The translations under genes were made by a program, and so were the position numbers. Positions 17,836 through 63,887 of a stretch of 64,000 bases of DNA are shown here, piece after piece. The notes under the pieces are model-generated. The model saw nothing but the letters and a program-made list of their open reading frames with translations. It was not told the origin of the DNA and did not search any database. This DNA is from Pseudo-nitzschia pungens (Eukaryota > Bacillariophyta > Bacillariophyceae > Bacillariales > Bacillariaceae), in NCBI GenBank assembly GCA_037355855.1, contig CM074758.1:5925001-5989000 (forward strand), given 5' to 3'. Every line of letters starts with the position of its first letter. The first letter of the stretch is position 1.

Positions 17836-17859
17836 CGTCCGAAAACTGTTTTGCGACCC
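17836..17859 (+). repeat. Left terminal inverted repeat, E copy 1
   Basis: The repeat starts CGTCCGAAAACTG and continues TTTTGCGACCC. It pairs with 39985-40008 with one mismatch. It is followed by four ATCGCGACC-type subterminal repeats up to about 17900. Confidence 0.88.
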
Positions 17860-18231
17860 ATCGCGACCAATCGCGACCAGATCGCGACCGGATCGCTACT
17901 TCTCTAAAAAAAACACGACCCCAATTTTTTATTTCATAACCTTTTTTCCATTATTCTCAACTTTTTTCCATTATTCTCAACCACATTTCTCCTTTTTCTC
18001 AACTCCCCCAACGTGGCGACGGAAATGTTCTGTTCTAGTCCCTGGCATTCAGTCCCTCCTCACATTTTCATTCCATTTTACACATTTGACACACTTGACT
18101 CAACACAACAAATAATTTTTAATCCAATTTACTTCAATCACACAAAAGTGTTACGTCGTGCACCTTTGTCAACTTTTTTTCAGTGGTGTCACATCACATA
18201 CCGGAATCGCATCACAAAAACACACACCACC

Positions 18232-20148
18232 ATGCCGAAAGCTTCCTCCGACCCAAGGCACTTTGCCAATGAGCCCAGAATACCCAAGACATTCCAATGT
18301 CGCAACTGCATTGCCTCCGGAAGAAGAAGAAAATCAAAATCCTTCAAGGGATACAAACAAGAATCGAGCCACTTTCACACCTACCGATACGTATCTCAAG
18401 GCCTCTCCAGGCATCTCTATTCCAACAGCGATTGCCAAACTTATTATGTTAAGAACGATCTTATGGATTTTATTTCTTCTGCGAAAGAAGAAGTCACCCT
18501 CCCTTTGGTCCGACACACACCATCACAGTATGGACTGACAATGACACAGAATGGACCACAAATCCCCCCCTCCCTTGCCCCAAATGACAACGCCGCAACA
18601 ACTTCTATCCACACCTCACTCAATCCTCAAGTGATCGCCAATGTATTCATCCCACCCATGGACAGACAGGCAATCGAATCGCATATGAATGAAAACGAGG
18701 AACAAATGAATGCAATCGAATCCAATGTTGATTCCTCGGACCATTTTGATGCCAGTTCCGACACCGAAATATCTGATTCCGAAATCATGAAAAGCACCAT
18801 CATTTCCATAAACGAAAGAGAGGAAACATTCCGGAATCGCACTCTGTTCCCACCCCGTCCGGAACTTATTGCCGAAATCAACCTCCTCAACATGATATTG
18901 CAGCACAAGCTACCTCTTTCCACTTATCAAACCATTTTCAATTGGGCGAAAGCCAGCAACAATCTTCCCGGTTTTGATTTCAAGGTTACACCAACAAGAA
19001 AACGTGATGCCATTTTTCAAGAAATAAAAAAAAATCTTGGCATATCTTCTGAACCAAAATTTGAGCCCAAAATTGTGAATTGGCTTCCTGACAACAAACC
19101 TGCTCAGATATATGTCCGTCCTTTTTTGGATGCTTTGTATTCCCTTCTGTCGAACCCAGATTTAATGTTGGAAGAAAATTTGTCATTCCCCAACAGCAAC
19201 ACCCCCTTGTCACCAGAGCATGTCCCAGTTCGAACTGATTCTTGTCCAATCACCGAGTTGCACCATGGATCATGGTGGTCGGATTCCTGGAGATCCCTCT
19301 GCATAGAAGAAAATTCTGAAATCCTTGTTCCCATCATTTTTTACATGGATGGAATTAGCTTGGATGCGCACGGAAGACTATCACTGACTCCACTCAACAT
19401 GACCCTAGGCAAATTCAACATCGAAACCAGGAAAAGGCCGGAAGCATGGACAACAATCTATTTTCATCCCGACTCCGATTTGGAGAGCATCCACCATTCA
19501 AGAAAACCATCTCCAAAAGAATCAATCCAAAACCTGCACAATGCCCTAGAAGTGGCGCTCCGATCTTTCAAAGAAGCATGTGAGTCCACCCATGAAGGCA
19601 TCCAATGGGATTTTCTCCCTTATGACGGCCAATTGTGGCAAGTCAAAATGAAATTTGCAATAGCCTATGTCATCAGTGACACAGAACTGCATGATAAATT
19701 ATGTGGCAAATATGGATCCCAGTCAGGTGGTGTACAAAAGCTTTGCTGACACTGTAACTGTTCCACCAAGGACATAAATATTCCATCAGCACAACAAACA
19801 GCCTCTCTTTGGGTCCCATCAGATTTTCAAACATTTCCAGACTCAGATGACACCACCACCAAGGAATATTTCAACAATATTTCTCACCACCAAATCAGAA
19901 ATGCATTCCACAGTCTCAACTTTGGTACAAATGTCAACAACATCCACTTAGCCTCCCCTGGTGAATGCCTTCATATGCACCAGCTGGGGTGTGCCAAACG
20001 AGAGGTAGAATCCCTGGAGCAGCTGATGAAGGGTTCAATACCATGCCCGTATGCTGATCACCTAAAGACCGGTGTTTCCACAGTAAATACAATCGGGCAT
20101 ATATCTCAAAAATATGGAGCCCTTCTCTCAAGGCAGTCGGATCGTGAC
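18232..20148 (+). pseudogene. Plavaka/CACTA-like transposase, 5' part (E copy 1)
   Basis: This is homologous to the intact 1064-residue protein at 41063-44257. The start is placed at ATG 18232 (MPKASSDPRHF) because the frame opened upstream at 18013 has no counterpart in copy 2. It is broken by TGA at 19747-19749, where copy 2 has CGA, and then physically interrupted by gypsy D at 20149. Most of it is nearly identical to copy 2, but residues about 51-76, after the CRNC motif, differ at 10 of 31 aligned positions. Confidence 0.88.
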
Positions 20149-20253
20149 TGTAACACTCTAAAGTAGAAATTTCGGAGTAGTATGAATAATTGTGTGTTAT
20201 TTCACTTTACGAGATGGGATTGAAATTAGACAGAGGAAATAATGAGCGATGAG
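20149..20253 (-). repeat. LTR of element D, 3' LTR, first piece
   Basis: These 105 bases begin TGTAACACTCTAAAG and run up to the ATGAG target site (20249-20253) of element C. The rest is at 26065-26276. Confidence 0.92.
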
Positions 20254-20564
20254 TGTAACACTCTAAGGTAGAAATTTCGGAGTAGTATGAATAATTGTGT
20301 GTTATATCACTTTTTGAGATGGGATTGAAATTAGAGAGAGGAAATAATGAGCGATGAGGTCATCGCGACCTCCTCGTATAATAACCATCCCTGTATATAA
20401 CATATATTCCGTATGTAACCTTAATCGTATAATCGCTCTCTTCTGCATGTCCGTTCATACATACCGGATATCCATACATGGATATCATACATATATTTGA
20501 ATCCCATGTGGGATTCGGTTAATTATTAATTCGTAACACTACTAGCCTACGCTGGCATGTTACA
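20254..20564 (-). repeat. LTR of element C (3' LTR)
   Basis: This 311-bp repeat runs from TGTAACACTCTAAGG to GGCATGTTACA. It contains inverted words such as GATATCCATACATGGATATC near 20467-20486. On the minus strand the internal sequence just before it ends ATCATGAGGCACTA, a weak purine tract. Confidence 0.94.
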
Positions 20565-20594
20565 TAGTGCCTCATGATTGAACGAATCCCACAG

Positions 20595-23500
20595 TTAACC
20601 CGACCAGTGACTCATGGAACAATCTGAATCATTTGATTGGCTTAATTCAATATCTGCGGATTCAGCTGGCGTAGACTCCGACTGATTCGATTCCCGATAT
20701 GGAGTCAGCTTCCGAATATTCACTGTTTCTACTACTGAAGGAGCTCGTTGTAACTTTACAGTTCCGTTCGTATTGACTTGCGTGATTGGAAAGGGACCAA
20801 GCTTCCTGGGTTGTAGCTTGTCCGGATCTGGCTCCTGGATCCATACCTTGTCATTGACTTGGAAGGTGTGGTTGATACGCTTGGCATTATCTCTGAGTAG
20901 ATTCTTGTTAATCCCTTGTTGCCGGAGCTGTTGCAAAGCTAATAGGTTGGATGTTAGTGGCAGATCAATCAGCATGTCCCGGTTGAATACTAGGGAGGAC
21001 CCTGGGGATGCTTGTAAGGCAGCATTAACAGCACACCGAGAGGCATGCATGCAAGTTGCCAGGGCATTGTCCATGAGCTGACTAGCTCTGGTGTTGACTT
21101 GAGGGGGATTTACATGAACTAAAACTCTGAGAATATCAGCGACTGTATGATGGACTCTTTCACAGATGGCATTAGACTGGGGATTCTTCACTGTGGTGGG
21201 AATGGACTGAATCCCATACTGCTTGAGTGTAGTTTGAAATTCAGCCCCTAGGAATTCACCACCATTGTCATGGACGCATCTGATAGGTCTTGGGTATCTT
21301 GAGAGCCAACAGTTCTTGAATTGGTCTGAGACGTGTTGCGAAGACTTGTCTCTGATTCGGATGATCTCCAGTAGGTTGGTGACTGGATCAATACAGGTTA
21401 GGGCTTTGAAGTTATAGTTCTTGCCCTGGGCTGTAATCTTCCATGGGCCTATAAGGTCCACATGTATTTCATTGAATGGAGCTAGTGGGGCTTCTTTCGG
21501 TGGTAGTTTACCATACTTGGAGTGCTGGTTCTTGTACTTAATGCAGCTGTCGGGGCAGATGTAAGTCTTGCAAAGATTGGATAGATTGTCAATGTAGAAT
21601 CTTGCGGAGATAGTTTGATATAACCTGGTGGATCCACAATGACCCAACAGAAGATGGTACCATTTGATGGTATCATTGGAAAGAGAACTTGGTATGTATA
21701 TGCGCCAGTTGTCTGGGTTCAATTGGTTGGCATAGCAGAGGATGTTATTGCCTTCTAGTTCTTGGTAGAAGAAGGCTTTGGATTGGATCTTGAACTTGAT
21801 GGTAGGGTCTTTCTGTTGATGGAGATAGATATTGGAATAGTTCACCGGGCATTCCAGGTCTTGGTTATTTGGTAGGTTAACTAGGCACTCATTATTCAGC
21901 AAGCAGGCTTGTAGTTCACTGTCTGCGTCATTGCATAAGTGCTGGAAGAGGTTCGGGAACTCTGCTAAAAACAGTTCTTCATCTTGTTTGGGGACTTCAA
22001 GCTTCAAGAAATCGATTAAGGTGCCCTTGGAGAGGGCTTTCTTCCCTTCAGTAGGTGGATCCATCCTGGGTAGTCTGGAGAAGGCATCAGCAAGAACATT
22101 CTTCTTGCCTTCCACATAAGTGAGGTTGACACCAAATTCTTCAAGGAATAGTCTCCACCGGAGGACTCGTTGGACTGAAAGGGTTCGAAAGGTTAGATTC
22201 TTATGGTCAGTGTATACATTGATAACACCACCAAGTAGCATTTTTCTGTACTCTTTGCAGCAGAGTACGATTGCGAGGAGTTCTTTCTCCATCGTGGTAT
22301 AGTTCTTTTGGGCATCAGATAGTTTCTTAGACCAGTATGCAATAGGCTTACCGTCTTGTAGTATGGCAGCACCAAGCTGTAGGTCTGAGGCATCAGTGTA
22401 CAGTTCAAAGGGCTTGTTAAGGTCTGGATAGGTATTCAGCGCATCTGCTGCTACCATGGCTTTCATTTCTTGAAAGGCTTTATCTTGAGCAGGTCCCCAA
22501 GTGAAAGCTGAAGGAGCCTTCCTTTGCTTGCCTTTGATGGCAGCTGCTTGAGGAGTCGTTTGCTTGGGGGTTCCGGTGATATCGAAGAGAGGAGCTAGGA
22601 CATGAGATCTGCGAGGCCACATATCCCTGTAGTATCCTACTGCGCCGAGAAAGGACTTGACTTGAGTGACAGTCCTTGGTCGATCCATATGTAAGATGGC
22701 TTCAATCTTCTTGCGCCATGGTTTAACTGCTGTGGGAGTCATCCAATAGCCTAGGAAGTCAGTTTCTTGTACAGCCCAGTCACACTTGAGTGGGTTGCAT
22801 TTAAGTCCATTTTGGTTGAGCCGGTCTAAGATTTTGTCAATGGTCTTCATGTGTAGATCGAAGGAGCCATTGGTCCAGATGCCAATATCATCAATATAAA
22901 CAGTGCAGTCAGTGTCTTGTAGGATATCTTCCATTAGTTGCTGGGCAACGTCTGGGGAGACTTTGACACCCATTGGCAGTCGTTGATATTCATAGCAACC
23001 ATATGGAGTTACTATGGTACAGAGTTTCTTGCTTGCGTCATCCAGTTCAAAGCAGTAGTATTGCATGGACAAGTCGATCTTGGTAAAGTGGGTATACTTG
23101 CCACGCTTGTTCATGATATCTTGTATCCTTGGTATGGGATAAGGTCTTCTTTCAAGGAGTTCGTTGAGTTCCCTGAAGTCTGATACCCATCGTACCCTGT
23201 TATCTTTCTTTGGTACTATGAAGGTTGGAAATGCCCATTCAGCTGGTCCAGAGCATCTCTTGAGTACTCCATCATTACAAAGATTCTGGAGCTCCCTTTT
23301 GAATAGGGCTTCTCTTTTGTATGCAACTGGATAAGGCTTCTTGTGTATGGGCTTGGATCCGGGCTTCAGTCTCAGAGAGATCTTCTTGTGAGGGTACTTG
23401 CCAAGTTCTCCATTGAAGACGTTTGGATACTTGGTTAGGATAGCTTGAAATTGTTGCTGTTCTGCTTTGGACATGTGGGACTGTTGCTGTGCGACTGTGG

Positions 23501-24563
23501 ATGGATCTGTTTCTTGGTAGGCTCTGTCTAGGATCACCTTGGACTTGTATGGATTAGCAAAGGAAAGGTCGTCAGCAAAGAGTTCGGCATCTTCGAGTTC
23601 TTCCATGAGCATGGTATGGTTGTCATGGTATAAGGAAGTATCTTTCATGGGAATGGTTCTATCCATCCACTGGACTGCTCCTTCTTTGAATAGGAGATTG
23701 ATCTTTGCTAGGTGGAGGAAGTCTCTGCCTAGTATCAGATCATATTTGCAGTTGGGTGAATGGAAGAGCCTTGCCTCTTGTCTGTCGATGGTGTAGTTGC
23801 CAAACTCTTGTAACTTGGTGTTTTTCATGACAATATACTCGGTCGTGTCAAAGGTTCCATTTGCTGTGGTTGTTAGGACTTGGTGTTTGCTTCGTATTGG
23901 CATGGTGCCAAATGGTAGTGCTCTTTTGTTGATTAGAGTTCCGGAGGATCCACTATCTAGTAAGGCGAGTAGTGGTCTTGATTTCGTGGGGATGCCTTGT
24001 ATGTACTGTACGTTGGTTAGTAGAATAGGAGCCACGTTGCTCGTATTCGTCCGAGTCGGAGCCACGTTGCTCTTATTCGGGGATGCCTGTTCTGCTGTAT
24101 TTCCAGCAGTTGACAGCAGCTTTAAATAATTTTGCTCCAGCGCACCTCCTTTGGTGTAGTCTTTGGAGTTTTGGGTATTGCAATAGAGATTTTTTGCTGT
24201 CCCAGTGGACCAATTCCTTGCCAGGGACAAGAGTGGTCTATTTATTGCTGCTGTACTATCTTTCGCGTCTGTACCCTTGGATCGATTCGGTTGTTTTCGA
24301 TTCGGATCCATGTTCGGGTTCTCTGTAGCAGAGAATCGAACTGTTTTTGTTGTTGTTGCTGCGATTGCAGGCTTTGCTGAGCGCTCAACAGGAATACTCC
24401 ATCCTGTAGGTTCCTTCCCCTCTTTATCTGGGAGATCTCCTCCATGCGTTATCCCAGACAGCAGGGCTGTGCTGGCATCCAGGTCCCGGGGAGCTGGAGG
24501 CAAGGTGATTGCTTGTTTGGGTGAAGCCGGGGGCTTCTTGTTAGGCTTGGAGCCTTGAATGGA
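20595..24563 (-). CDS. pol: Gypsy Pol polyprotein (element C)
   Basis: The frame runs from directly after the gag TGA (24564-24566) to a stop at 20595, about 1320 codons, with no own ATG required. A Pro-rich linker comes first. The protease is LLALLDSGSSGTLI with YDLILGRDFL. RT has VRWVSDFRELNELLERRPYP, IDLSMQYYCFEL and catalytic VYIDDIGIW. RNase H has FELYTDASDLQLG and VYTDHKNLTF. Integrase has a Cys-containing finger (CKTYICPDSC), then HVDLIGPW, VHDNGGEF and NAICERVHH carrying D, D, E. Gag and pol are in one frame, so UGA readthrough is the simplest expression mechanism. A C-terminal tail rich in Ser and acidic residues ends the protein. Confidence 0.93.
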   Translation of the reverse strand, partial: SIQGSKPNKKPPASPKQAITLPPAPRDLDASTALLSGITHGGDLPDKEGKEPTGWSIPVERSAKPAIAATTTKTVRFSATENPNMDPNRKQPNRSKGTDAKDSTAAINRPLLSLARNWSTGTAKNLYCNTQNSKDYTKGGALEQNYLKLLSTAGNTAEQASPNKSNVAPTRTNTSNVAPILLTNVQYIQGIPTKSRPLLALLDSGSSGTLINKRALPFGTMPIRSKHQVLTTTANGTFDTTEYIVMKNTKLQEFGNYTIDRQEARLFHSPNCKYDLILGRDFLHLAKINLLFKEGAVQWMDRTIPMKDTSLYHDNHTMLMEELEDAELFADDLSFANPYKSKVILDRAYQETDPSTVAQQQSHMSKAEQQQFQAILTKYPNVFNGELGKYPHKKISLRLKPGSKPIHKKPYPVAYKREALFKRELQNLCNDGVLKRCSGPAEWAFPTFIVPKKDNRVRWVSDFRELNELLERRPYPIPRIQDIMNKRGKYTHFTKIDLSMQYYCFELDDASKKLCTIVTPYGCYEYQRLPMGVKVSPDVAQQLMEDILQDTDCTVYIDDIGIWTNGSFDLHMKTIDKILDRLNQNGLKCNPLKCDWAVQETDFLGYWMTPTAVKPWRKKIEAILHMDRPRTVTQVKSFLGAVGYYRDMWPRRSHVLAPLFDITGTPKQTTPQAAAIKGKQRKAPSAFTWGPAQDKAFQEMKAMVAADALNTYPDLNKPFELYTDASDLQLGAAILQDGKPIAYWSKKLSDAQKNYTTMEKELLAIVLCCKEYRKMLLGGVINVYTDHKNLTFRTLSVQRVLRWRLFLEEFGVNLTYVEGKKNVLADAFSRLPRMDPPTEGKKALSKGTLIDFLKLEVPKQDEELFLAEFPNLFQHLCNDADSELQACLLNNECLVNLPNNQDLECPVNYSNIYLHQQKDPTIKFKIQSKAFFYQELEGNNILCYANQLNPDNWRIYIPSSLSNDTIKWYHLLLGHCGSTRLYQTISARFYIDNLSNLCKTYICPDSCIKYKNQHSKYGKLPPKEAPLAPFNEIHVDLIGPWKITAQGKNYNFKALTCIDPVTNLLEIIRIRDKSSQHVSDQFKNCWLSRYPRPIRCVHDNGGEFLGAEFQTTLKQYGIQSIPTTVKNPQSNAICERVHHTVADILRVLVHVNPPQVNTRASQLMDNALATCMHASRCAVNAALQASPGSSLVFNRDMLIDLPLTSNLLALQQLRQQGINKNLLRDNAKRINHTFQVNDKVWIQEPDPDKLQPRKLGPFPITQVNTNGTVKLQRAPSVVETVNIRKLTPYRESNQSESTPAESADIELSQSNDSDCSMSHWSG

Positions 24564-25607
24564 TCAGGGGAGCCACACGAGTTCCCCATCGATACTGCGT
24601 TCAGTTCGACCACCATGATTGGCATGGTATTCTTCGATTGCTGCATTGATGTGCGCTTGGAAGGTCTCATTACTTCCTGGTATCATGAGAGCTTGGGTCT
24701 GAGTGTGGAAGGACTCAGTTTGTTGCTGATTTCCGGAGCTTCCGGAGCCCTTGTTGTGGTTCTTTGAGAACCTGTTCTTGGGGCACTCAGACCAATCGTG
24801 GTTGTGACCGGGGATCCGGCATGGATTGGACTTCTTCTTATTGTTGGCGTTTCCTTTGTGGTTGGAATTGTGGTTGCGCTTACGAGAGTTGTTGTTGTTC
24901 AAGCGCTTCTGTTGCTGTTTGTTGTTCTTGTTGCCTTTCTTGTTGGCTTGGCGCTCGTGACAGCTCATGTAGTCCACGATGTGTCGAACGGTCGTGTCCT
25001 CTTGGATTCCATTGTGCATCATGCCATAGCTTTCGATCCATGCAGAGGGAAAGGAATGGAGAAGGATGGTGAGTTTCTCCACTCTAGAAAGAGGCGCACT
25101 GCTTCCTTCTAGTTTCTGGGTATATTTCATGAGGATAAGAATGCGGTCAGCATGTTCCTCGCATGTGACTGATGGCGTCTTTCGGCAGTCGTGGCTTCTG
25201 AGATAGGTGTGCATGATGTCTCTCGCGTCCTTGGCGTTGCAGTAGAGCTGAGTGAAATCAATGAACGCTTGTTCATATCCACCAATTTCTTCTTGGGAGT
25301 ATTGGAATTCTTCGGGATCCAAGGGGTCCTTGATCATGTCATTCCACTTGCTCTGTGCATCTGTGGTGAGGCAGCGTCCAAAGTGGGTTAGATAGATGCT
25401 GATTGGCAGGCGAAGGTAGATAGCAGCGTTCCTGAAGGACTCTTCCACAAAGAGCAGTTCTTCCAGGCCTCCTGTTGCTGTGAACAGGGGGACTTTCATG
25501 CTGTCGGTTCTGTCTTCGTCGACGTTGTACAGGGTGAAGAGCTTCGGTTTAGTTCGATCGAAAGAACTCTTGTAGCTGATGGGGGGATCTCTGTAGATAC
25601 CGGTCAT
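24564..25607 (-). CDS. gag: Gypsy Gag (element C)
   Basis: A 347-residue Gag starting at ATG 25607 (MTGIYRDPPISYKSSFDRTK), 141 bp inside the 5' LTR. Conserved capsid blocks are DARDIMHTYL, ILLHSFPSAW and IVDYMSCHER. They are followed by an Asn/Lys/Gln-rich RNA-binding-type linker and the Cys/His segment NPCRIPGHNHDWSECPKN. The C-terminus GELVWLP precedes TGA. The pol frame continues after that TGA without a shift. The protein would form particles and package element RNA. Confidence 0.93.
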   Translation of the reverse strand: MTGIYRDPPISYKSSFDRTKPKLFTLYNVDEDRTDSMKVPLFTATGGLEELLFVEESFRNAAIYLRLPISIYLTHFGRCLTTDAQSKWNDMIKDPLDPEEFQYSQEEIGGYEQAFIDFTQLYCNAKDARDIMHTYLRSHDCRKTPSVTCEEHADRILILMKYTQKLEGSSAPLSRVEKLTILLHSFPSAWIESYGMMHNGIQEDTTVRHIVDYMSCHERQANKKGNKNNKQQQKRLNNNNSRKRNHNSNHKGNANNKKKSNPCRIPGHNHDWSECPKNRFSKNHNKGSGSSGNQQQTESFHTQTQALMIPGSNETFQAHINAAIEEYHANHGGRTERSIDGELVWLP

Positions 25608-25735
25608 GGTCGAAGGAGTTGGATAAGGAGGTTGCTCTTGTCAGGGGTACAGGTTGCCTCTGTTGTTGAGGCTGTTGGTTTGGTTTTCGTGAGAGTTCAG
25701 TACTGAATTCTACTACTGTTCCTACGTGAAAGCGG

Positions 25736-25749
25736 ACAGTAATTACTGT
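25736..25749. promoter_or_regulatory. 14-bp palindrome at the primer-binding-site position (element C)
   Basis: ACAGTAATTACTGT overlaps the first base of the 5' LTR and occupies the place of a primer-binding site. It is identical to the one in elements B and D. Downstream in the leader a second short palindrome, TTCAGTACTGAA, is also shared with D. Confidence 0.6.
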
Positions 25750-26059
25750 GTAACACTCTAAGGTAGAAATTTCGGAGTAGTATGAATAATTGTGTGTTAT
25801 ATCACTTTTTGAGATGGGATTGAAATTAGAGAGAGGAAATAATGAGCGATGAGGTCATCGCGACCTCCTCGTATAATAACCATCCCTGTATATAACATAT
25901 ATTCCGTATGTAACCTTAATCGTATAATCGCTCTCTTCTGCATGTCCGTTCATACATACCGGATATCCATACATGGATATCATACATATATTTGAATCCC
26001 ATGTGGGATTCGGTTAATTATTAATTCGTAACACTACTAGCCTACGCTGGCATGTTACA
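25749..26059 (-). repeat. LTR of element C (5' LTR)
   Basis: This 311-bp repeat appears identical to 20254-20564. It is followed by ATGAG and the continuation of D's 3' LTR. Confidence 0.94.
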
Positions 26060-26064
26060 ATGAG

Positions 26065-26276
26065 GTCATCGTGACCTCCTCGTATAATAACCATCCCTGT
26101 ATATAACATATATTCTGTATGTAACCTTAATTGTATAATCGCTCTCCTCTGCATGCCTGTTTACACATACCAGATATCCGTACCTGGATATCTTATATAT
26201 ATATATATTTGAATCCCATGTGGGATTCGGTTAATTATTAATTCGTAACACTACTAGCCTACGCTAGCATGTTACA
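26065..26276 (-). repeat. LTR of element D, 3' LTR, second piece
   Basis: This piece continues the LTR begun at 20149 and ends GCATGTTACA. It has a longer TA run near 26197-26210 than the 5' LTR of D. Confidence 0.92.
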
Positions 26277-26306
26277 TAGTGCCTCATGATTGAACGAATC
26301 CCACAG

Positions 26307-29300
26307 TTAAGCCGACCAGTGACTCATAGAACAATCTGAGTCATTTGATTGGCTCAATTCGATATCTGCGGATTCAGTTGACGTAGACTCCCGGTATGGA
26401 GTTAGCTTCCGAATGTTCACTGTTTCCACTACTGAGGGAGTCCGTTGCAACTTTACAGTTCCATTCGTATTGACTTGCGTGATTGGAAAAGGACCAAGCT
26501 TCCTGGGTTGTAGCTTGTCTGGATCTGGTTCTTGGATCCATACTTTGTCATTGACTTGGAAGGTGTGGTTGATACGCTTGGCATTATCTCTGAGTAGATT
26601 CTTGTTAATCCCTTGTTGCCGGAGCTGTTGCAGAGCTAACAGGTTGGATGTTAGTGGCAGATCAATCAGCATGTCCCGGTTGAATACTAGGGACCCTGGG
26701 GATGCTTGTAAGGCAGCATTAACAGCACATCGAGAGGCATGCATGCAAGTTGCCAGGGCATTATCCATGAGCTGACTGGCTCTGGTATTGACTTGTGGGG
26801 GATTCACATGAACTAAGACTCTGAGAATATCAGCGACTGTATGATGGACTCTTTCACAGATGGCATTAGATTGGGGATTCTTCACTGTAGTGGGGATGGA
26901 CTGAATCCCATACTGCTTGAGAGTAGTCTGGAATTCCGCGCCTAGAAACTCGCCACCATTATCGTGAACACATTTGATAGGTCTTGGGTATCTTGAGAGC
27001 CAACAGTTCTTGAATTGATCAGAGACATGCTGAGAAGATTTGTCTCTGATCCGGATGATTTCAAGTAGGTTGGTGACTGGATCAATACAGGTTAGGGCTT
27101 TGAAGTTGTAGTTCTTGCCCTGTGCTGTAATCTTCCATGGGCCTATAAGGTCCACATGTATTTCATTGAATGGAGCTAGTGGGGCTTCTTTCGGTGGTAG
27201 TTTACCATACTTGGAGTGCTGGTTCTTGTACTTAATGCAGCTGTCGGGGCAGATGTAAGTCTTGCAAAGATTGGATAGATTGTCAATGTAGAATCTTGCG
27301 GAGATAGTTTGATATAACCTGGTGGATCCACAATGACCCAACAGAAGATGGTACCATTTGATGGTATCATTGGAAAGAGAACTTGGTATGTATATGCGCC
27401 AGTTGTCTGGGTTCAATTGGTTGGCATAGCAGAGGATGTTATTGCCTTCTAGTTCTTGGTAGAAGAAGGCTTTGGATTGGATCTTGAACTTGATGGTAGG
27501 GTCTTTCTGTTGATGGAGATAGATATTGGAATAGTTCACCGGGCATTCCAGGTCTTGGTTATTTGGTAGGTTAACTAGGCACTCATTATTCAGCAAGCAG
27601 GCTTGTAGTTCGCTGTCTGCGTCATTGCATAAGTGCTGGAAGAGGTTCGGGAACTCTGCTAAAAACAGTTCTTCATCTTGTTTGGGGACTTCAAGCTTCA
27701 AGAAATCGATTAAGGTGCCCTTGGAGAGGGCTTTCTTCCCTTCAGTAGGTGGATCCATCCTGGGTAGTCTGGAGAAGGCATCAGCAAGAACATTCTTCTT
27801 GCCTTCAACATAGGTGAGGTTGACACCGAATTCTTCAAGGAATAGTCTCCACCGGAGGACTCGTTGGACTGAGAGGGTTCTGAAGGTAAGGTTCTTATGG
27901 TCGGTGTAGACATTGATAACACCACCAAGTAGCATTTTTCTGTACTCTTTGCAGCAGAGTACAATTGCGAGGAGTTCTTTCTCCATTGTAGTATAGTTCT
28001 TTTGGGCATCAGATAGTTTCTTGGACCAGTATGCAATAGGCTTGCCATCTTGTATAATGGCAGCACCTAGTTGTAGGTCGGAGGCATCAGTGTACAGTTC
28101 GAAGGGCTTGTTGAGGTCTGGATAGGTGTTTAGGGCGTCTGCTGCCACCATTGCTTTCATTTCTTGAAAGGCTTTATCCTGAGCAGGTCCCCAGGTGAAG
28201 GCTGAGGGAGCCTTCCTTTGCTTGCCTTTGATGGCAGCTGCTTGGGGAGTCTTCTTGGGCGTACCAGTTATATCAAAAAGAGGAGCTAAGACATGGGATC
28301 TTCGGGGCCACATATCTCTGTAGTAGCCTACTGCGCCAAGGAAGGACTTAACCTGAGTGACAGTTCGGGGCCTATCCATGTGTAGGATTGCTTCAATCTT
28401 CTTCCTCCAAGGCTTAACTGCAGTAGGAGTCATCCAATATCCAAGGAAGTCGGTTTCTTGTACAGCCCAATCACACTTGAGTGGGTTGCACTTGAGGCCA
28501 TTCTGGTTAAGTCTGTCAAGGATCTTGTCGATAGTTTTCATATGGAGATCAAAGGATCCATCAGTCCAGATACCAATATCATCAATATAAACAGTGCAGT
28601 CAGTGTCTTGTAGGATGTCTTCCATGAGCTGCTGCGCCACATCCGGGGAGACTTTAACTCCCATTGGTAGTCTTTGGTATTCATAGCAACCATATGGTGT
28701 CACTATTGTACAGAGTTTCTTGCTTGCATCGTCCAGTTCAAAGCAATAGTATTGCATAGACAAGTCAATCTTGGTGAAGTGAGTGTACTTGCCTCGTTTG
28801 TTCATGATATCCTGTATCCGGGGGATTGGATAAGGACGCCTCTCAAGAAGTTCATTTAGTTCTCTGAAGTCTGATACCCATCGAACTCTGTTGTCTTTCT
28901 TTGGGACGATAAAGGTAGGGAAAGCCCATTCAGCTGGTCCAGTGCACCTCTTGAGTACTCCATCATTACAAAGATTCTGGAGCTCCCTTTTGAATAGGTC
29001 TTCTCTTTTGTATGCAACTGGATAAGGCTTCTTGTGTATGGGCTTGGATCCGGGCTTCAGTCTTAGAGAGATCTTCTTGTGTGGATACTTCCCTAATTCT
29101 CCATTGAAGACGTTAGGGTACTTGCTTAATATTGCTTGAAACTGCTGCTGCTCTGTCGTGGACATGTGGGACTGTTGCTTGGCTACTGTCGATGGATCTG
29201 TTTCTTGGTAGGCTCTATCTAGGATCACCTTGGACTTGTATGGATTAGCAAAGGAAAGGTCGTCAGCAAAGAGTTCGGCATCTTCGAGTTCTTCCATGAG

Positions 29301-52863: not shown

Positions 52864-53325
52864 AACAACGCAGTAACAGGGTTGTTAAGTATAAGAAACA
52901 GAAACTGCGCATAAAACCGCGCGATTGCGAGCTACTACACATGGAATCGTACTGAGCACTATATCTGCTCCGACCACGAGGATGCTGGAATCTTACACGT
53001 GGAATTGTACTGAGCACTGCTCCAACCACGCTCATGGAGTCGCGTACATATATGCCCGTGACCATGCTAAGACCATGCGAAGTATACATCACTGAATAAA
53101 CAAAGCAGACACATACAAATACATAAGAATAAATACATACAGGCCCAGCGAGTTATGCGAGCACAAGACCTGTGAGCGAGCAAGCGACCAAGTGTTAAGC
53201 GATCGTCGCTAATCAATCCAATCGCTAACACACAGTCCACACAGAGCAATCGAGTGTTAACACAGAAAACACATGATTCGCTAGATAGAATACTAAGCTC
53301 ATAATTCCAGTTAAACAACTTGTTA
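52864..53325 (+). repeat. LTR of copia element (3' LTR)
   Basis: This repeat is preceded by the purine tract AAGGAGGG (52856-52863), a clear polypurine primer. It ends CAACTTGTTA and is followed by TGTAG. It contains 24 bp absent from the 5' LTR. Confidence 0.92.
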
Positions 53326-53330
53326 TGTAG

Positions 53331-53985: not shown

Positions 53986-54680
53986 CCTTTAAATCGTCGT
54001 CGCTATTCGTTTCGATCGTTTTGTCATTGTCCTTGAAATTGTCGTTGCTCTTCGCACCGATCACTTTCGTCTTTGTTGTCGTCCCTGAAATCGTCAGCGA
54101 TCTTCGCTTCGATTGTATTCGTCGTCGTCCCTGAAATCGTCTTCGCTTTTGGCTTCGATCGTCTTTGTCGTCGTCGTTGAACCTTCGATTGCAATACGTC
54201 GTTGATCGCAATTCGTCGTCTCTCCTATCTTCGATCGCAATTCGTCGTCTCTCCTGGCTTTGTCGTCTCTTCTAGCTTCGTCGTCTCTTCTAGCTTCGAT
54301 CGGAATTGGTCGATTTTAAAGTGTTCGATTTTAAGTCGTCGTCTCTCCTGGCTCTGAACGGAATTGGTCGATCGTAAATCGTCGTCTCTCCTGGCTTCGT
54401 CGTCTCTTCTAGCTTCGATAGGAATTGGTCGATTTTAAAGTGTTCGTTTCGATCGTTTTGTCGTTGTCCTTGAAATCGTCGTTGCTCTTCGCACCGATCA
54501 CTTTCGTCTTCGTCGTCGTCCCTGAAATCGTCGGCGCTCTTCGCTTCGATTGTATTCGTCGTTGTCCCAGAAATCGTCTGCGCTCTTCGCTTCGATCGTC
54601 TTTGGCCTCGTTGTTGAAATCGTCGTTGCTATTCGCCCCGATCGTTGCTCTGCGTTTTGATCGTGTTCGTTGTCAAGCAG
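53986..54680. repeat. TCGTCG minisatellite upstream of gene 2 (copy 2)
   Basis: Repeats of TTCGATCGTTTTGTC, GAAATCGTCGTTGCTCTTCG and CGTCGTCTCTCCTGGCTTCG lie over the presumed promoter side of gene 2. A roughly 200-bp portion is duplicated (compare 54000-54180 with 54445-54610). It is absent from copy 1, which has the internal deletion. Confidence 0.75.
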
Positions 54681-57147: not shown

Positions 57148-59820
57148 ATGGCAAGGAACAAGAGGAATAGAAATTCACCATCCCGTCGGTCTGGAAATCC
57201 ACCTCGGTCCATACGGCGACGAACAACAAATGCTCCGAGAAGATCACCCCGTTCACCCCCCGAACGAAACTATCAGGAGGATCCATCTAGCAGTGATGAT
57301 GCTGCTGAACCAGTACCTGATGGTGACCAATATGTACCTCCCTCAGCATCGGAGAATGAGGAGGAACTTGAGCAAGATTCCACTGACACTGAACAACCCC
57401 AACAAGAGAATGAGGAGGAACTTGAGCAAGATTCCACTGACACTGAACAACCCCAACAAGAGAATGAGGAGGAACTTGAGCAAGATTCCACCGACACTGA
57501 AGAATCTTCTGATGGAGAATCGGAAAGTGAGAACAAAGACAGTGAATCGCAAAGTGAGAATGAAGACAGTGAGGATGAAGACAACGACCGGGAATTAGAG
57601 AGTGACACCCATCCGCGAATGCCCGACTTCCCATGGGAAAAAACGACGGAACAACCAAAACAAATCCTACTGCCGTCGTGGGTAAGGGAACCGACGATCC
57701 CGAAGATAACGAAGGCGAAGATGATGAACAAAATAAAACTAATCCTGTCGTCGTGGCTAGGGGAATCGACGATCCTGCGGATAGCGAAGAGGATGCAAAA
57801 AATAAAACTAATCCTGCTGTCGGGGCTAAGGGAACCAACAATCCTGACAATGACCAAGACTGGGTAAGTGAGATAACACATTTCACTCTGCAGGATGTTC
57901 TTCACCATCCTCCGGCCGGGGCAAACAACCGAAAGACCAACAATCCTGACAATGACCAAGACTGGGTGAGTGAGATAACAAATATCACTTTGCAGGATGT
58001 TCTTCGCCATCCTCCGGCCGGGGCAAACAACCGAAAGACCAACAATTCTTTCGGGGCTCGCGGTGCCGACAATTTGAGCGAGGACGAAGACAAGGACCGA
58101 AACGAAAACAAAGATAATGACGACGATTCGAGCGAGGACGAAGACAAGGACCAAAAAGAAAAGAAAGACGAAAACCAAAATAATTCCGTCAACCGAAATA
58201 ATTCGACAAACGATGCCGAAGAAGACGATGGGGGTGGGGAAGTCGACGGTCCTAAAGCGAACAAAGCCACAAACCGAAACAAAGACATCGGGGGTGGGGA
58301 AGACGACGGTCTTAGTGGTGCCGACGATTCGAGCCAGGACGAAGACAAGGACCGAAACGAAAAGAAAGATAATGACGACGATTCGAGCGAGGACGAAGAC
58401 TCAAGCCAGGACAAAGACAAGGACCGAAACGAAAAGAAAGATAATGACGACGATTCGAGCGAGGACGAAGACAAGGACCGAAAGGAAAAGAAAGATAATC
58501 CTCCCGTCGGGGCCAAGGGCAACGACGACCGAAAAACCAACAATTCTTTCGAGGCTCGTGGTGCCAACGATTTGAGCGAGGACGACGATTCGAGCAAAAA
58601 CGACGACAAAAACGAAAACCAAAACGAAAACGGTGATGATGTTGGCGGGACTGGTGAAGTCGACGATCCCACCAGCGATGATGAAGACAAAAACCAAAAT
58701 AATTCAGTCAACCAAAATAATTCGACGAACGATGCCGAAGCCAACGACAGGGGTGGGGAAGACGACGATCCTAAAGCGAACGAAGCCACAAACCGAAAAA
58801 AAGCCATCGGGGCTGTGGAGGACGACGTCCCTAAAGCGAACGAAGCCACAAACCCAAACAAACAAAAAAAAAACTCGACTATAACAATAAACAGGTACGG
58901 ATTGAACGCAGGCTCGGCCGCAAACAAACTACAAAGCCAGATAGTGCCAAGAAGATGAAAGACAAAGGCGTTAGAGGAAAGGTAAAAACGGTTGCAAAAA
59001 ACGTAAAAGAACTTCAGTTTTGCAGCACCTATGGGGATATGGATAAGCAAGAAGAAAGTCCCGGCTTTATTAACTTTTTGGGTTCCTACGACGACATCAT
59101 TCCGAGAACAAGTACTAAATCAAATTTTGAGTCCGATTGGGACTATCAGAGAAAGAAAGGACCAAAACTCACATTTCTGGTTGATCCCGCTTTCGACCTA
59201 TATAGAGAAAGAATCGGTGATCAATTAATCAATGCTGGCAATTGGTTTAAGGAGAACAAATGTAAAGAGACAGGACCATATCACACACAAACTGTGGAAG
59301 ATTATTTCGATAGGAACTTCGGTGGTGCTTCGACGGCAACGAATGAGAATAACATACCTAAGGATATAAAGAATGCCGCCCCCTCTGTAATAGAAAAGTT
59401 GACGGAGAAACAAATGGAACAGATCATTCAGGAGGAGACTAAGGGTATGACAATGGAAGAAAAAGGGTTGTTCTGACGCTCGGTGAATGCTGTGATGGAT
59501 AAGCAGCAGTGCGAACGCTACAAGAACAAAGGGAATGGTGCGGTCTGTGAAGGGAAAAAAAATTGTTTCGAAATCGCCCACAAGAACGTCAACCATAAAA
59601 GAAGGGAGGATGAGAAGAAGAAATTAGCAAGCCTCGGTAATAGTGTTCAAAACATGGAACAGGAGACTGAACAAGACAGAGAGAAAAAGAAGAAAAGGAA
59701 AAAAAAGGGAAGAGGATGCAAAACTCAACGTCCAACCTTCCACCTCATATGAAGAAGCATCCTCCACCAGGACCACCAAAGCCAGGGAAAAAGCCGCCAG
59801 CAGGGGCACAACAGAAGTAG
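57148..59820 (+). pseudogene. E accessory gene 3, frameshifted (copy 2)
   Basis: ATG 57148 opens an Arg/Pro-rich basic N-terminus, then three near-identical acidic repeats (ENEEELEQDSTDTEQPQQ). The frame shifts at an A6 run near 57641, continues through many Asp/Glu/Lys/Asn repeats (DDDSSEDEDKDRNEKKD type) to 58950, and shifts again at an A10 run near 58866. It enters the conserved C-terminal domain (KDKGVRGKVKTVAKNVKELQ; FINFLGSYDDIIPRTSTKSN; FLVDPAFDLYRERIGDQ), which is cut by TGA 59474-59476. A Cys/His-containing piece and a Lys-rich tail follow, with one more shift before TAG 59820. It is not recognised. A 102-bp tandem duplication lies at about 57840-58043. Confidence 0.65.
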
Positions 59821-59974: not shown

Positions 59975-60800
59975 AAATAATGGTCAGTATATGCATCTGT
60001 TAGAATACTAAAAAGGAATAATCTTGCTACCAATTATATTTTGGATGTAAGTTCTGATTTCTCAGAAACATTCTCAGTACCCGAATTTTCACCACAGAAT
60101 GTGCATATTTCCTGTGGATGGGTCAAATTGTCCTAGTTTTTTTTAATTCCACACTGAATAATGGTCAGTATATGCATCTGTTAGAATACTAAAAGGGAAT
60201 AAACTTGCTACCAATTATATTTTGGATGTAAGTTCTGATTTCTCAGAAACATTCTCAGTACCCGAATTTTCACCACAGAATGTGCATATTTCCTGTGGAT
60301 GGGTCAAATTGTCCTAGATTTTTTGTGTTCCGCACTGAATAATGGTCAGTATATGCATCTATTAGAATACTAAAAAGGGAATAAACTGGCTACCAGTTAT
60401 ATTTTGGATGTAAGTTCTGATTTCTCAGAAAAAGAATTCACAGTACCCAAATTTTCACCACAGAATGTGCATATTTCCTGTGGATGGGTCAAATTGTCCT
60501 ACTAGATTTTTTTTATTCCGCACTGAATAATGGTCAGTATATGCATCTATTAGAATACTAAAAAGGGAAAAAACTGACTACATGTTATATTTTGGTTGTA
60601 AGTTCTGATTTCTCAGAAAAATTCTCTGTACCCGAATTTACACCACAGCAGAATGTGCATATTTCCTGTGGATGGGTCTGATTGTACTAGATTTTTTGTA
60701 TTCCACACCGAATAATGGTCAGTATATCCATCTATTAGAATACTAAAAAAGGAATAAACTGGGCGCCACATATATTTTGGATGTGACACTTGCTTTGTAA
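59975..60800. repeat. 181-188-bp tandem repeats, E copy 2
   Basis: TGGTCAGTATATGCATCTAT starts units at about 59981, 60162, 60343, 60531 and 60716, spaced 181, 181, 188 and 185 bp. It matches the array of copy 1 (35780-36860) and sits in the same place between genes 3 and 4. Confidence 0.88.
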
Positions 60801-61543: not shown

Positions 61544-63145
61544 ATGCCTACCATATATGAAGAGTATCAGGAAATAACAAGCAAAGCACCCACCGATTGC
61601 AATGCACCAAGAAAGAATCGAAGTGAAAAAATTGTATCCAATGCTAATACAGGTGCTGATACTACTACTAGTACTACCACTACGAAATCGAACCCAAAGA
61701 CAAGTCGAAAACTACCACCCACCTCAGGTGGTGGAGGGGGAAGAAATAAAAAAAGCAAGAACAACCCGACCGAGGTTTTGGTTGGTACCACACCACCAAC
61801 CAACAAACCCGCCGCCGCCCCGGGTGTTGTTACACCGAGAACTATTACGACCGGCACCAAAATAACACCAAGACCCACCTACGAAGCATTGCTACAACAG
61901 CTAAAAGAGAGCCAGCAGATAGTAGCTTCTTTAGAGAGGGATGTGACAACACTGCGGGAGGATACAAAAAAAGAAGAGCCCACGCTGAAGGCAACTGAAA
62001 CAGGGAAGAAGCCAAAGCCACAGATGGTACAAACCGTAAGTGAAGCAAAATTAGAGATAACTAAGCTGCATTGGGATAAACTTAAGGAACATCAAAAAGA
62101 CGCGGGTTTGGAAGCACAGTTGACACTGCACATAAAAAAATAGGTGGTTTCGTAACTTGAAGTTTATTGTGGATGAGAATAAGGTCAAATCAATTTTGAA
62201 GAAAGCGATTGCGTCGAAAGCTGTGGTTCCGCCCCATGGTATTCCATTTCAAATTTTTTATGAGTTTAACAGGAGGTTGGTGTACAAGGGTGTTGCCACA
62301 CTGAGGCACAATGCTCAAACTTTGGCTAGAAAACACTATCTCGGTACGTGCTTACTAAGTGAATAAATTGGTTACTATTACTGCTTGGTGGTGATTGATG
62401 GTATATCCCCTGCTACTCTAACACTTTTTACTGCTGTGTAATCCTACTAGAGGACACACTCGATCGCGAAGGCATTGTGCCCGATTCGTTCCCGGGTAAA
62501 GTGGAGATTGTGATGCGGGAGAGTACTAGTAGTAGTGGAACTAGTAGTAGAAAGAAGCTGGGACTTAACCCAGAGTACAGAAGATATGACAACAACAGTG
62601 AAAATGAGGATTTTTATTACTTTGTGACTCGGATTCTATCAAGCATCTCTCCAATACAGAAGGACTACAGACACAGAAAGAAGACATGTTTGATAAGTGA
62701 AATATTCACAGTTACCAATGAAGCATTTGCATTGATGATGATTCATAATGAGTATGATGTTTGGGTGAATCATGTTGAGCAAAAAAGGAACGGCGGTGGC
62801 AGGATTGTGAGAAGGAGGAAGAAAAAGAAATTTTGTGACCAATACAGTGGAGAGCTGCAATTGTGGTCAAAGGAAGGTCTAGCACTGTTCAATAACTTGT
62901 GCAGGGAGATTGATGTGCTGAGGAAAGATCCGAGAACAGGTAGAGAATGTGAGGAAAGATTGAGAGAGAGGCTCCGTCGCGAGAGTGTAAACAATGACAA
63001 CAACAACAGTGTGTTCGATGCGGACTGGGTGCAGGAGGAAGAAGTTACTGAATACATTAGTCTGGAGCTACAAGCTTTGCTAGATGTAAATGTAGATGAG
63101 GAGGACTTTACTGGCAGTAACGATATCACGTTGGCCAATCTTTAA
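61544..63145 (+). pseudogene. E accessory gene 4, one-base frameshift (copy 2)
   Basis: It has the same layout as the intact copy: ATG 61544 (MPTIYEEYQE), a Gly/Thr-rich region, a coiled coil, an intron at 62344-62450 (GTACGT...CTACTAG, 107 bp), and exon 2 to TAA at 63145. An extra A in a run near 62135 (A7 versus A6 in copy 1) shifts the frame after LTLHIK and creates an immediate stop. Exon 2 remains open, with TNEAFALMMIHNEYDVWVN. The identical intron position and length in both copies supports real splicing in the ancestral element. Confidence 0.75.
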
Positions 63146-63179
63146 AAATCGTTTGATCGAACCAAAATTTGTGTGTGAG

Positions 63180-63300
63180 TGTGTGAGGAAGACGATCGAA
63201 GCGAAGAGCAACGACGACTTCAGGGAGGATGACGAGGGCGGTCGGAGCGAAGAGCAACGACGATTTCAATGACAACGAAGATTTCAAGGACGATGACTTC
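63180..63300. repeat. Minisatellite block downstream of gene 4 (copy 2)
   Basis: A short version of 39150-39410: GATCGAAGCGAAGAGCAACG and GACGACTTCAGGGAGGA units in the orientation opposite to the 44312-44880 block. Confidence 0.75.
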
Positions 63301-63863
63301 TTAATTTGTGTGTGAGTGTGTGAGAAAATTGAACAGAGAATAAACAATTATTAGAGTAGTATCAATATTTATCAAAAGAAAGACTTATATTTTGCATCAT
63401 AGTGTTTCAAAAAAAAAATTCATGGGGGTTGCGATTCCTGGGCTTCGGGTTATAATTGTGATTTTTGTGATGAATTTCTTGAGGGGTGTGATGGGAAATA
63501 CTTTGTGTCGGGATGAGAAATCAATTTTTGGGAGTGAATTTCTGCAACAGTCTCATAATATATAATGATGGTAGGGTCGGTAATAATGAGTCAGATTGAA
63601 AAAAAATTGGGGGAAGGGGGGAATTATTTTGAGAAAACAAATATTTTTTTTGAAAATGTTGATTAATTTGATTAAGTGACTGAAGAAAATATTTGAGTCT
63701 TACAAAAAAATTTGGGTCTTGTTTGAATTTTTTCTCTTTTTCTCGGAATTGAGGTAGTAACTGGGTCGCGATTGGGGTTGCGAATCGCGAGAGAGCTAGG
63801 AATCGAGCTACGTCAAAATGAGCCAGGAATAAATCGCGACCCCCCCAAATAAATTCTTGGGAG
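63301..63863. other. Right subterminal region, E copy 2
   Basis: AT-rich non-coding sequence ending in TCGCGA-containing words, nearly the same as 39411-39984. A minus-strand 60-codon frame near 63808-63990 crosses the element end and is chance. Confidence 0.5.
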
Positions 63864-63887
63864 GGGTCGCGAACCAGTTTTCGGACG
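63864..63887 (+). repeat. Right terminal inverted repeat, E copy 2
   Basis: The repeat ends GCGAACCAGTTTTCGGACG, the inverted match of 40648-40671, and is followed by target dinucleotide TG. Confidence 0.9.

Follow-up and report, generated by a model that had tools for sequence, protein, structure and literature searches.

Two long insertions of similar content interrupt a single gene in the 64,000-nucleotide stretch of DNA analysed here (the window), and the question is whether they are copies of one multi-gene transposon and whether the genes beside the transposase belong to it. The original prediction, made from the window sequence, described a very large DNA transposon, E, present twice (E1 and E2) and carrying a transposase and three accessory genes (genes 2, 3 and 4). 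The results showed that the two large copies with their accessory genes are real (Table 1).

Boundaries, size and decay of the two copies

Both E1 and E2 were found in one piggyBac-like gene (Pfam DDE_Tnp_1_7). The terminal sequence CGTCCGAAAACTG is exact at all four ends and, with up to two mismatches allowed, matches six times in the window, compared to a mean of 1.40 and a maximum of 5 in shuffled sequence. Each copy is flanked by a 2-bp target site duplication (TSD), and seven paralogous loci match both halves of the interrupted gene at 96–99% identity and are unbroken at both sites. The exact termini, the CT/CT and TG/TG flanks and these empty sites confirmed the predicted boundaries. The order transposase (+), gene 2 (−), gene 3 (+), gene 4 (+) was identical in E1 and E2, as had been claimed. 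The claim that excision restores the reading frame held at each junction, where omission of the element and one flank copy leaves an open frame, but not for the gene overall: a frameshift between the two insertion sites means that the gene as a whole is not a single frame, and its paralogues have about 80 bp extra between these sites.

Genome-wide, the terminus pattern gave 472 matches (233 + 239), compared to 2 (1 + 1) for a reversed control pattern. Thirty termini, all on C1, were examined individually, the places listed being the first ones (C1, C2); they form 13 stacked pairs (11 left/right, one left–left and one right–right), with four termini unpaired. Equal 2-bp flanks were present in 9 of the 11 nested left/right pairs and in neither the left–left nor the right–right pair. 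This genome scan, which the original prediction had proposed, thus bore out inverted ends with 2-bp duplications in E1, E2 and the wider family. At left ends, sites of the motif TCGCGACC are spaced one helical turn apart, and at right ends the arrangement differs (40 left and 16 right ends); the search pattern itself all but dictates the site at position 16, but not the other positions. A repeated subterminal motif that is asymmetric between the ends is an En/Spm-like feature.

The predicted very large size was correct as to multi-gene content and only partly as to length, since E1 and E2 reach 22–23 kb because nested retrotransposon inserts enlarge both copies. One copy without evident inserts measures 13,572 bp (C1:6315316-6328887; search coordinates, with the DNA read near the transposase only), and the family size is roughly 13.6–15.5 kb. 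The nested LTR elements read as Gypsy-like and Copia-like from their ORFs. Both window copies are decayed, with an in-frame stop in the E1 transposase, broken frames in E2 gene 3 and stops in exon 1 of E2 gene 4. In addition, 12.8 kb of E2 is missing from E1, so that remnants of genes 2 and 3 are fused in E1.

Table 1. Positions of E1, E2 and associated features in the window
Feature	Position	Strand	Details and basis
piggyBac-like host gene (DDE_Tnp_1_7), piece before E1	16703–17835	+	Pfam match, junction frame, paralogues
piggyBac-like host gene, remaining pieces	40011–40647 and 63890–64000	+	Frame over junctions, paralogues
Element E1	17836–40008	+	22,173 bp including inserts; TSD CT; termini, flank and paralogue comparison
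E1 left terminal inverted repeat and TCGCGACC array	17836–17890	+	Terminus and motif searches
E1 transposase (Plavaka lineage), split by nested LTR elements, in-frame stop	18232–33004 (pieces 18232–20148 and about 31727–33004)	+	Repeat/ORF maps
Two nested Gypsy-like LTR retrotransposons with common central LTR, inside E1 transposase, not part of E	about 20149–31724	−	Repeat and ORF maps
E1 gene 2, 5′ part deleted	33589–34675	−	Repeat/ORF maps, gene-2 search
E1 gene 3, C-terminal remnant with broken frame	34704–35721	+	ORF maps, gene-3 search
181-bp tandem repeat between genes 3 and 4, E1	35965–36760	+	Repeat map
E1 gene 4 exon 1	37518–38319	+	ORFs, homologue comparison
Gene 4 predicted intron, GT..AG	38320–38426	+	Sequence; homologues align over it
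E1 gene 4 exon 2	38427–39121	+	ORFs, gene-4 search
E1 right terminal inverted repeat	39996–40008	−	Terminus search
Element E2	40648–63887	+	23,240 bp including insert; TSD TG; termini, flank and paralogue comparison
E2 left terminal inverted repeat and TCGCGACC array	40648–40700	+	Terminus and motif searches
E2 transposase, 1064 aa, open	41063–44257	+	Plavaka profile 29.3 bits (cut-off 26.3); residues
Imperfect 46-bp unit array between transposase and gene 2 (A type)	44325–44835		Repeat map, A–B comparison
E2 gene 2, C-terminal part	44906–46407	−	ORFs, gene-2 search
Nested Copia-like LTR retrotransposon splitting E2 gene 2, not part of E	about 46408–53324	+	LTR pair 94%, ORFs
E2 gene 2, CxxC-containing N-terminal part	53327–53962	−	ORFs; far N-terminus frame-broken, read against L065
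E2 gene 3, acidic repeats, frame broken	57148–59476 (conserved C-terminal domain 58955–59476)	+	Repeat map, ORFs, gene-3 search
181-bp tandem repeat between genes 3 and 4, E2	59976–60784	+	Repeat map
E2 gene 4, stops in exon 1, exon 2 open	61544–63145	+	ORFs, gene-4 search
E2 right terminal inverted repeat	63875–63887	−	Terminus search

Transposase lineage and accessory genes

The genome was searched with the Pfam Plavaka profile (PF18759) and with a Pseudo-nitzschia transposase. The E2 locus scored above the curated cut-off of the profile, as did none of 14 control genomes, and Pfam Plavaka was matched in 12 of 26 aligned transposase relatives; hmmscan of the whole E2 transposase protein listed no family at E ≤ 1. 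The alignment of 26 gave residues D374, D484, C506-x2-C509, H745-x3-H749 and E769, that is, a D-D-E with C(2)C and H(3-4)H between the second D and the last E, as in Plavaka, and the 2-bp TSD is one of the two lengths (2 or 3 bp) of that lineage. The Pfam score and these residues bear out the predicted Plavaka-type transposase, and the sequence comparisons support E as a cut-and-paste DNA transposon of this lineage. However, its ends, CGTCC..GGACG, are unlike those given in the available sections of the published account, TGT..ACA for PlavakaA and CATCA..TGATG for PlavakaB (PMC12730594), and E was filed under neither. CACTA/EnSpm proper, which needs CAC..GTG ends and a 3-bp TSD, was rejected, as was KDZ, for which the same sections state an 8-bp TSD (for Zisupton; PMC12730594).

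The accessory proteins scanned gave weak matches only in Pfam, PDB, PHROGs and NCBIfam, and a gene-2 homologue search found none among 7707 candidates, where low-complexity words may have crowded out true ones. The Cys-rich start of the 588-aa E2 gene-2 ORF, taken in the original prediction as the N-terminus of gene 2, turned out to be LTR read-through; in L062 and L065, a CxxC-rich N-terminus belongs to gene 2 itself. The transposase had a dN/dS ratio of 0.20 and gene 2 one of 0.25 (for gene 2, about 0.2 where dS exceeds 0.4), with overlapping loci of one and the same copy included.

Cassette versions and association with the transposase

Genes 2 and 3 lie head to head and make up a cassette, of which there are two deeply diverged versions, A and B. 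Among transposase-associated copies, the gene 2/gene 3 type was A/A in 18, B/B in 13 and mixed in none, as counted with a 20 kb window for gene 3 and with nine short gene-2, two short gene-3 and 32 earlier-excluded gene-3 rows omitted; a Fisher test on this pairing takes related copies to be independent. At 12 of 43 transposase matches, gene 2 or gene 3 was missing within range, and an A-group gene 2 stands with a B-group gene 3 at three loci, in another arrangement. The absence of mixed cassettes may merely mean that genes 2 and 3 share no recombinable stretch between them. Of 30 loci, 17 were of type A and 10 of type B, and three lacked a full type; in the typed loci, transposase dS was 0.107 both within A and between A and B, and gene-2 dS between A and B was 1.12 (median codons compared: 206 for AA, 136 for AB and 87 for BB). 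Homology between A and B ends 58 bp past the transposase in all nine comparisons of one A locus (L039) with nine of the ten B loci; six A loci were also set against L039. Since A and B cassettes sit on transposases that do not sort by version, recombination between elements is needed.

An alternative without cassette exchange is that A and B are old lineages whose ends, transposase and gene 4 were homogenised by gene conversion, leaving a diverged middle. It predicts an equal picture, with a homogeneous chassis, a diverged middle and a sharp break, and the constant +58 position fits a single ancestral break point. However, the A/B label needs at least six changes on supported branches of the transposase tree, and therefore conversion would have to act repeatedly, over the whole 3.2-kb gene; in addition, at 5 of 25 places the gene 4 downstream of a B cassette is of another type. 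We consider gene conversion a somewhat unlikely explanation.

The accessory genes were located near 43 transposase matches, those scored of 249 candidates (two further genome searches scored 40 of 252 and 40 of 231). Gene 2 was present in 32, gene 3 in 35 and gene 4 in 38, when gene 2 was sought within 8 kb and genes 3 and 4 within 30 kb; at the latter range, a far gene 4 may belong to a neighbouring element. The corresponding counts were 1, 4 and 5 in the upstream control and 0, 0 and 2 on the wrong strand. These counts rest on coordinates and identities of search matches (59 of 59 rows for gene 2, 58 of 90 for gene 3 and 61 of 136 for gene 4 exon 2, distant or partial rows being left out); 65 loci (298,770 bases) were taken overall, and the DNA itself was read around 30 termini, 30 transposase matches and five gene-2 matches. 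All three genes occurred in the order and orientation of E at 29 of the 43 matches, so the case that other copies never carry genes 2–4 fails. In a second Plavaka family, found with the Pseudo-nitzschia transposase query (47 scored of 195 candidates), gene 4 follows the transposase in 12 of 12 second-family loci among the matches listed, with 0 and 0 in the controls.

An alternative is that genes 2–4 are passengers, captured host genes on a transposase-only element with no role in its life. Besides the order at 29 of 43 against few in controls and the 12 of 12 listed loci of the second family, a gene 4 homologue occurs in Pseudo-nitzschia gene models (counted here as another diatom), where models 43789 (transposase homologue) and 43790 (gene 4 homologue) bear consecutive numbers; the gene 2 dN/dS of about 0.2 at higher dS also speaks against passengers. 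On the other side, gene 2–gene 3 pairs are also found far away from every family-1 transposase listed, and no gene 2 lies within 20 kb of 13 of the 14 distant gene-3-like matches (59 gene-2 rows and 72 of 90 gene-3 rows surveyed). Gene-4 relatives of 495–498 aa stand at 13 places without a listed Plavaka match alongside, 6 kb deletion derivatives are common in the genome and have spread without genes 2–4, and gene 4 dN/dS is not low, though from few pairs (0.67 over six and 1.04 in one). The passenger explanation is improbable. The claim of one system was thus upheld by co-occurrence and gene 2 constraint and weakened by the pairs and lone matches elsewhere, and the sequence data partly support that the accessory genes belong with the transposase.

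In some integrated viruses, several genes of unknown fold accompany an integrase-like enzyme. E has several accessory genes in such a position, and the idea that it is what remains of an integrated DNA virus, or of a virus-like element, using a Plavaka transposase was considered and dropped as very improbable, as the four E proteins scanned had no strong PHROGs match and viral contigs scanned with the transposase and gene 4 gave no confirmed relative (word scan of limited divergence reach).

Proposed mechanism and related elements

Taken together, E is probably a family with a Plavaka transposase, an end-binding gene 4 product and gene 2–gene 3 cassettes that are exchanged between elements and regulate the element or counter its silencing. 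The transposase would cut at the inverted repeats, and an element-encoded protein, most likely that of gene 4, would bind the phased sites and help to join the ends, by analogy with TNPA in En/Spm. The gene 2–gene 3 pair would regulate the element or counter its silencing, and cassette versions might stay together because their proteins fit each other or face different defences. Both the end-binding and the anti-silencing role are what we infer for the accessory proteins. A bolder version, which we hold tentatively and judge rather unlikely, is that a chassis of ends, transposase and gene 4 receives idiomorph-like two-gene cassettes, whose matched genes 2 and 3 set regulatory identity (self-repression, or evasion of a sequence-specific silencer), comparable to phage immunity modules or mating-type idiomorphs.

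Fungal PlavakaA and PlavakaB (CMCT clade), in the available sections of their description, have D-D-E, C(2)C, H(3-4)H and a 2-bp TSD, with TET/JBP extra genes in some; E resembles them in its Pfam Plavaka transposase, catalytic residues, TSD and extra genes and differs in its ends, its three different accessory genes and its diatom host (PMC12730594). No TET/JBP match to Pfam was found in the E proteins scanned. Plavaka giant repeats of Amoebidium, as described in the accessible text, reach 50 kb and hold tandem gene clusters, many encoding tyrosine recombinases; E is likewise a long multi-gene unit beside a Plavaka transposase, but has four single genes between inverted repeats, not tandem clusters (PMC11244446). 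The giant EnSpm elements of Chondrus (16–20 kb, 4–5 ORFs) and Ectocarpus (up to 15.2 kb, accessory genes) are similarly large, belong to the same wider clade and have several ORFs, nested inserts and non-autonomous copies, also in algae; they are EnSpm, not Plavaka, and the available parts of their descriptions contain no exchanged two-gene cassette (PMC6431247, PMC12477816). En/Spm and other CACTA elements, according to the portions of the source at hand, encode TNPA and TNPD and have asymmetric subterminal repeats and a 3-bp TSD; E shares a transposase with a further element protein and the asymmetric repeats, whereas its ends and TSD differ and its protein binding is presumed (PMC2613891). 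No TNPA homology was seen in the E proteins. VANDAL elements have a transposase of another superfamily than that of E. Their VANC anti-silencing proteins, in the extracts of the source used, have diversified versions, with tandem repeats in noncoding parts, and may be a functional analogue in that E too has a candidate element-encoded factor, diversified versions and noncoding tandem repeats; in E, however, the ends are constant while two genes differ, and no homology was found (PMC10398659).

The use of accessory genes in giant transposons is mostly unknown, and E is a case with natural variation: gene 4 accompanies the transposase of two diverged families, and genes 2 and 3 come as a pair, in alternative versions on a common chassis. 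Plavaka, treated for fungi and a few other lineages in the literature drawn on here, is now an abundant family in a diatom. Dozens of natural E copies allow core functions to be separated from variable ones, and near-identical copies that differ in gene 2–gene 3 version make it possible to study how the element uses its extra genes and to test directly if cassettes determine element identity or escape from silencing. If chassis and cassette identity is the true reading, several types would persist in one genome under frequency-dependent selection.

Boundaries and anatomy of the two copies

The 66.9-Mb genome (28 contigs), in which the window occupies C1:5925001-5989000, was searched for relatives of E1 and E2, the two copies of element E that interrupt one piggyBac-like gene. 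The inverted ends and 2-bp duplications first described were borne out, as both copies have exact CGTCCGAAAACTG termini and are flanked by CT (E1) or TG (E2). Seven paralogous piggyBac-like loci, with 96-99% identity to both halves of the gene, were unbroken at either insertion site, which fixes the boundaries of both copies. The original observation that excision restores the reading frame held in part: without the element every junction is open, but the gene is frameshifted between the two sites, where the paralogues are about 80 bp longer.

Segments shared by E1 and E2 showed 86-94% alignment identity. The very large size first ascribed to the element needs qualification, because E is indeed a multi-gene element but the length of both copies is partly foreign, coming from nested retrotransposons; a Copia-like one sits in gene 2 of E2. 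A stretch of 12.8 kb present in E2 is absent from E1, where remnants of genes 2 and 3 are fused. Neither copy is intact.

Gene 2 is a single 719-aa frame in two loci (L062 and L065); CxxC motifs cluster towards its N-terminus, and its other end is acidic. Gene 3 contains acidic repeats, and its C-terminal domain is conserved. Gene 4 is split into two exons by a 107-bp GT-AG intron, over whose junction Pseudo-nitzschia homologues align. The structure is demonstrated at the sequence level, and we hold this structural part with great confidence. Imperfect, mutually related arrays of ~46-bp units lie at several gene boundaries of E; the array stretch after the transposase is specific to type A or B of the gene 2-gene 3 cassette. 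At 7358-13233, two long ORFs on the minus strand (1088 and 479 aa) lie between the copies of a 210-bp direct repeat (96%); this is probably a further LTR retrotransposon.

Coordinates of features (positions without a contig are those of the window)
Feature	Position	Remark
Paralogous uninterrupted piggyBac-like locus (example)	C1:9550250-9551314	matches both halves
Two Gypsy-like retrotransposons, tandem, common central LTR	20149-31724	inserted together in E1 transposase
Copy with all four genes (by coordinates)	C1:6315316-6328887	13,572 bp
A-type end pair	C1:5372472-5387923	15,452 bp
~46-bp-unit arrays	33226-33513, 39159-39394, 44325-44835, 53980-54645, 63190-63300	
Tail-to-tail gene 2/gene 3 relatives	C11:740073-742470, C7:1799688-1801966, C12:2060918-2062738	
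Single-ORF gene-4 relatives (examples)	C8:477474-478778, C1:5306808-5308112	

Transposase class and element ends

The Plavaka-type assignment was supported by a profile score at E2 of 29.3 bits (cut-off 26.3; 0/14 control genomes matching), by the D-D-E/C2C/H3H residues and by a fitting TSD; hmmscan with the whole E2 transposase listed no family. Twelve of 26 aligned transposase proteins matched Plavaka. In this alignment D484, C506, C509, H745 and H749 never vary, and D374 and E769 hardly do. This agrees with the D-D-E pattern plus C(2)C and H(3-4)H that excerpts of PMC12730594 give for Plavaka, EnSpm, Transib and RAG1. The TSD agrees with Plavaka, whereas the ends match neither PlavakaA nor PlavakaB, and from its sequence we class E as a member of the Plavaka lineage whose termini are of a new type.

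Large multi-gene elements of the Plavaka/EnSpm clade are already known, since the available excerpts describe giant EnSpm elements with several ORFs in red and brown algae (PMC6431247, PMC12477816) and Plavaka giant repeats in Amoebidium (PMC11244446). Judged by their titles, the Plavaka papers listed deal with fungi, an animal relative or a green alga, and none with diatom Plavaka elements. The literature searched, partly excerpts, with Repbase and most subscription papers outside it, contained no description of this set of genes and none of two-gene cassettes being exchanged.

Genome-wide, the terminus pattern gave 233+239 matches, compared to 1+1 for the reversed pattern (≤3 mismatches). 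Left ends carry TCGCGACC at positions 16, 26, 36 and 47 (39, 39, 38 and 31 of 40 distinct ends), a spacing of 10-11 bp or one helical turn, and right ends at 16, 47 (inverted) and 117/118 (16, 14 and 15 of 16), position 16 being almost forced by the search pattern. The window holds 17 copies of the motif, none of them in the 18.5 kb counted outside E1 and E2. This arrangement resembles the asymmetric subterminal repeats of CACTA elements, bound by TNPA-like proteins according to excerpts of PMC2613891, and we infer that proteins may bind the E ends.

Nesting of 30 terminus loci on contig C1 gave 11 left/right pairs, nine with equal 2-bp flanks; E1 and E2 are two further such pairs. Short end pairs of ~5.6-7 kb are common, and the insides read in two loci (L005, L026) hold a truncated transposase start followed by satellite-like repeats, so these pairs are deletion derivatives. 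Satellite-like repeats also occur in L008, L017, L020 and L027 (the L027/L028 derivative is 13 kb), and short derivatives have a truncated transposase start or the left end alone, plus long repeats of this kind. At C1:3618777-3659421 (L011, L012, L015, L018), equal-flank ends (TG/TG, TA/TA) are interleaved, not nested, as after rearrangement. The full-length transposases of three loci (L049, L050 and L051, on C6, C1 and C2) are identical or almost identical in the tree, suggesting recent transposition.

Association of genes 2-4 with the transposase

Among 43 scored transposase matches, 29 are free of stops and span residues 3-1061 or more. Gene 2 lies within 8 kb downstream of 32 of the 43, on the opposite strand; genes 3 and 4 lie within 30 kb downstream of 35 and 38, respectively, on the strand of the transposase. 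Other copies do carry the accessory genes: all three follow in order downstream of 29/43 matches, and of 27/31 near-full-length ones. Upstream controls gave 1, 4 and 5 of 43 for genes 2, 3 and 4, and the wrong strand 0, 0 and 2, demonstrating the gene association. The transposase had a median dN/dS of 0.20 (823 pairs) and gene 2 one of 0.25 (290 pairs; 0.20 for 163 pairs with dS >0.4), demonstrating constraint on both; gene 4 gave 0.67 (6 pairs) and 1.04 (1 pair), with dS there only below 0.1 or so.

In a second Plavaka family, with ORFs of 1051-1068 aa, a gene-4 relative lies downstream on the same strand in 12/12 among the loci listed (exon 2 at 2.2-2.3 kb in every locus, exon 1 at ~1.3 kb in 10), and none of these 12 has one within 10 kb upstream or on the wrong strand. 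All 19 divergent gene-4 exon-1 matches have exon 2 at 177-220 bp, which fits an intron at the equivalent place. Named relatives of the window proteins are Psemu1 models, presumably from Pseudo-nitzschia multiseries; the Pseudo-nitzschia transposase and gene-4 models bear consecutive numbers (43789 and 43790), suggesting adjacency. Single-ORF gene-4 relatives (495-498 aa; 42-48% identity in the exon-2 part) occur at 13 places, with no Plavaka match alongside among the matches listed.

The gene 2-gene 3 cassette

For genes 2 and 3 alike, identities to E2 split into two groups, A and B. Elements holding both (n=31) were A/A in 18 cases, B/B in 13 and never mixed (Fisher p 5e-9, the copies not being independent), and 72 gene-3 rows gave 24 A/A and 18 B/B head-to-head neighbours. 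At three loci a gene 2 of group A and a gene 3 of group B stand tail to tail, 540-736 bp apart, >60 kb from listed E-type transposases or on a contig with none among the matches listed; here the pair persists in another arrangement. Of the distant gene-3-like matches (27-35%; e.g. C8:1806654, C10:1609108, C12:1584192), several lie within 580-945-aa ORFs, and 13/14 are without a gene 2 at a distance of up to 20 kb.

Median dS of the transposase was the same within A (136 pairs) as between A and B (170), at 0.107, and was 0.095 within B (45); in this order, the gene 2 values were 0.26 (120), 1.12 (110) and 0.05 (18, few codons). By this measure transposases do not sort by type. On a transposase tree of 30 loci the A/B label has to change 8 times, and supported branches impose 6 of these changes; 253/500 label shuffles did as well. 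One A locus (L039) is 94-98% alike to nine B loci until 58 bp past the transposase and then unlike, homology returning at 67-77% ~900 bp further, in the gene-2 part, in 7/9; its likeness to six A loci continues past this break. B-group gene 3 lies upstream of a second gene-4 type at 5/25 places. The unsorted transposases, the sharp break and this last combination demonstrate, as far as sequences tell, repeated recombination between the transposase and the block formed by genes 2 and 3. Cassette exchange is the probable form of this, although homogenisation of the chassis (ends, transposase, gene 4) by gene conversion is a live alternative. Under cassette exchange or otherwise, genes 2 and 3 may remain linked through a mutual fit, or for want of a place between them where recombination could occur.

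Since gene 4 alone accompanies the transposase in both families, its protein is tentatively proposed as a partner of the transposase at the element ends. Genes 2 and 3 would be the variable unit, for which a regulatory or anti-silencing role, in functional analogy to the VANC anti-silencing proteins (excerpts of PMC10398659), is conceivable at a lower probability.
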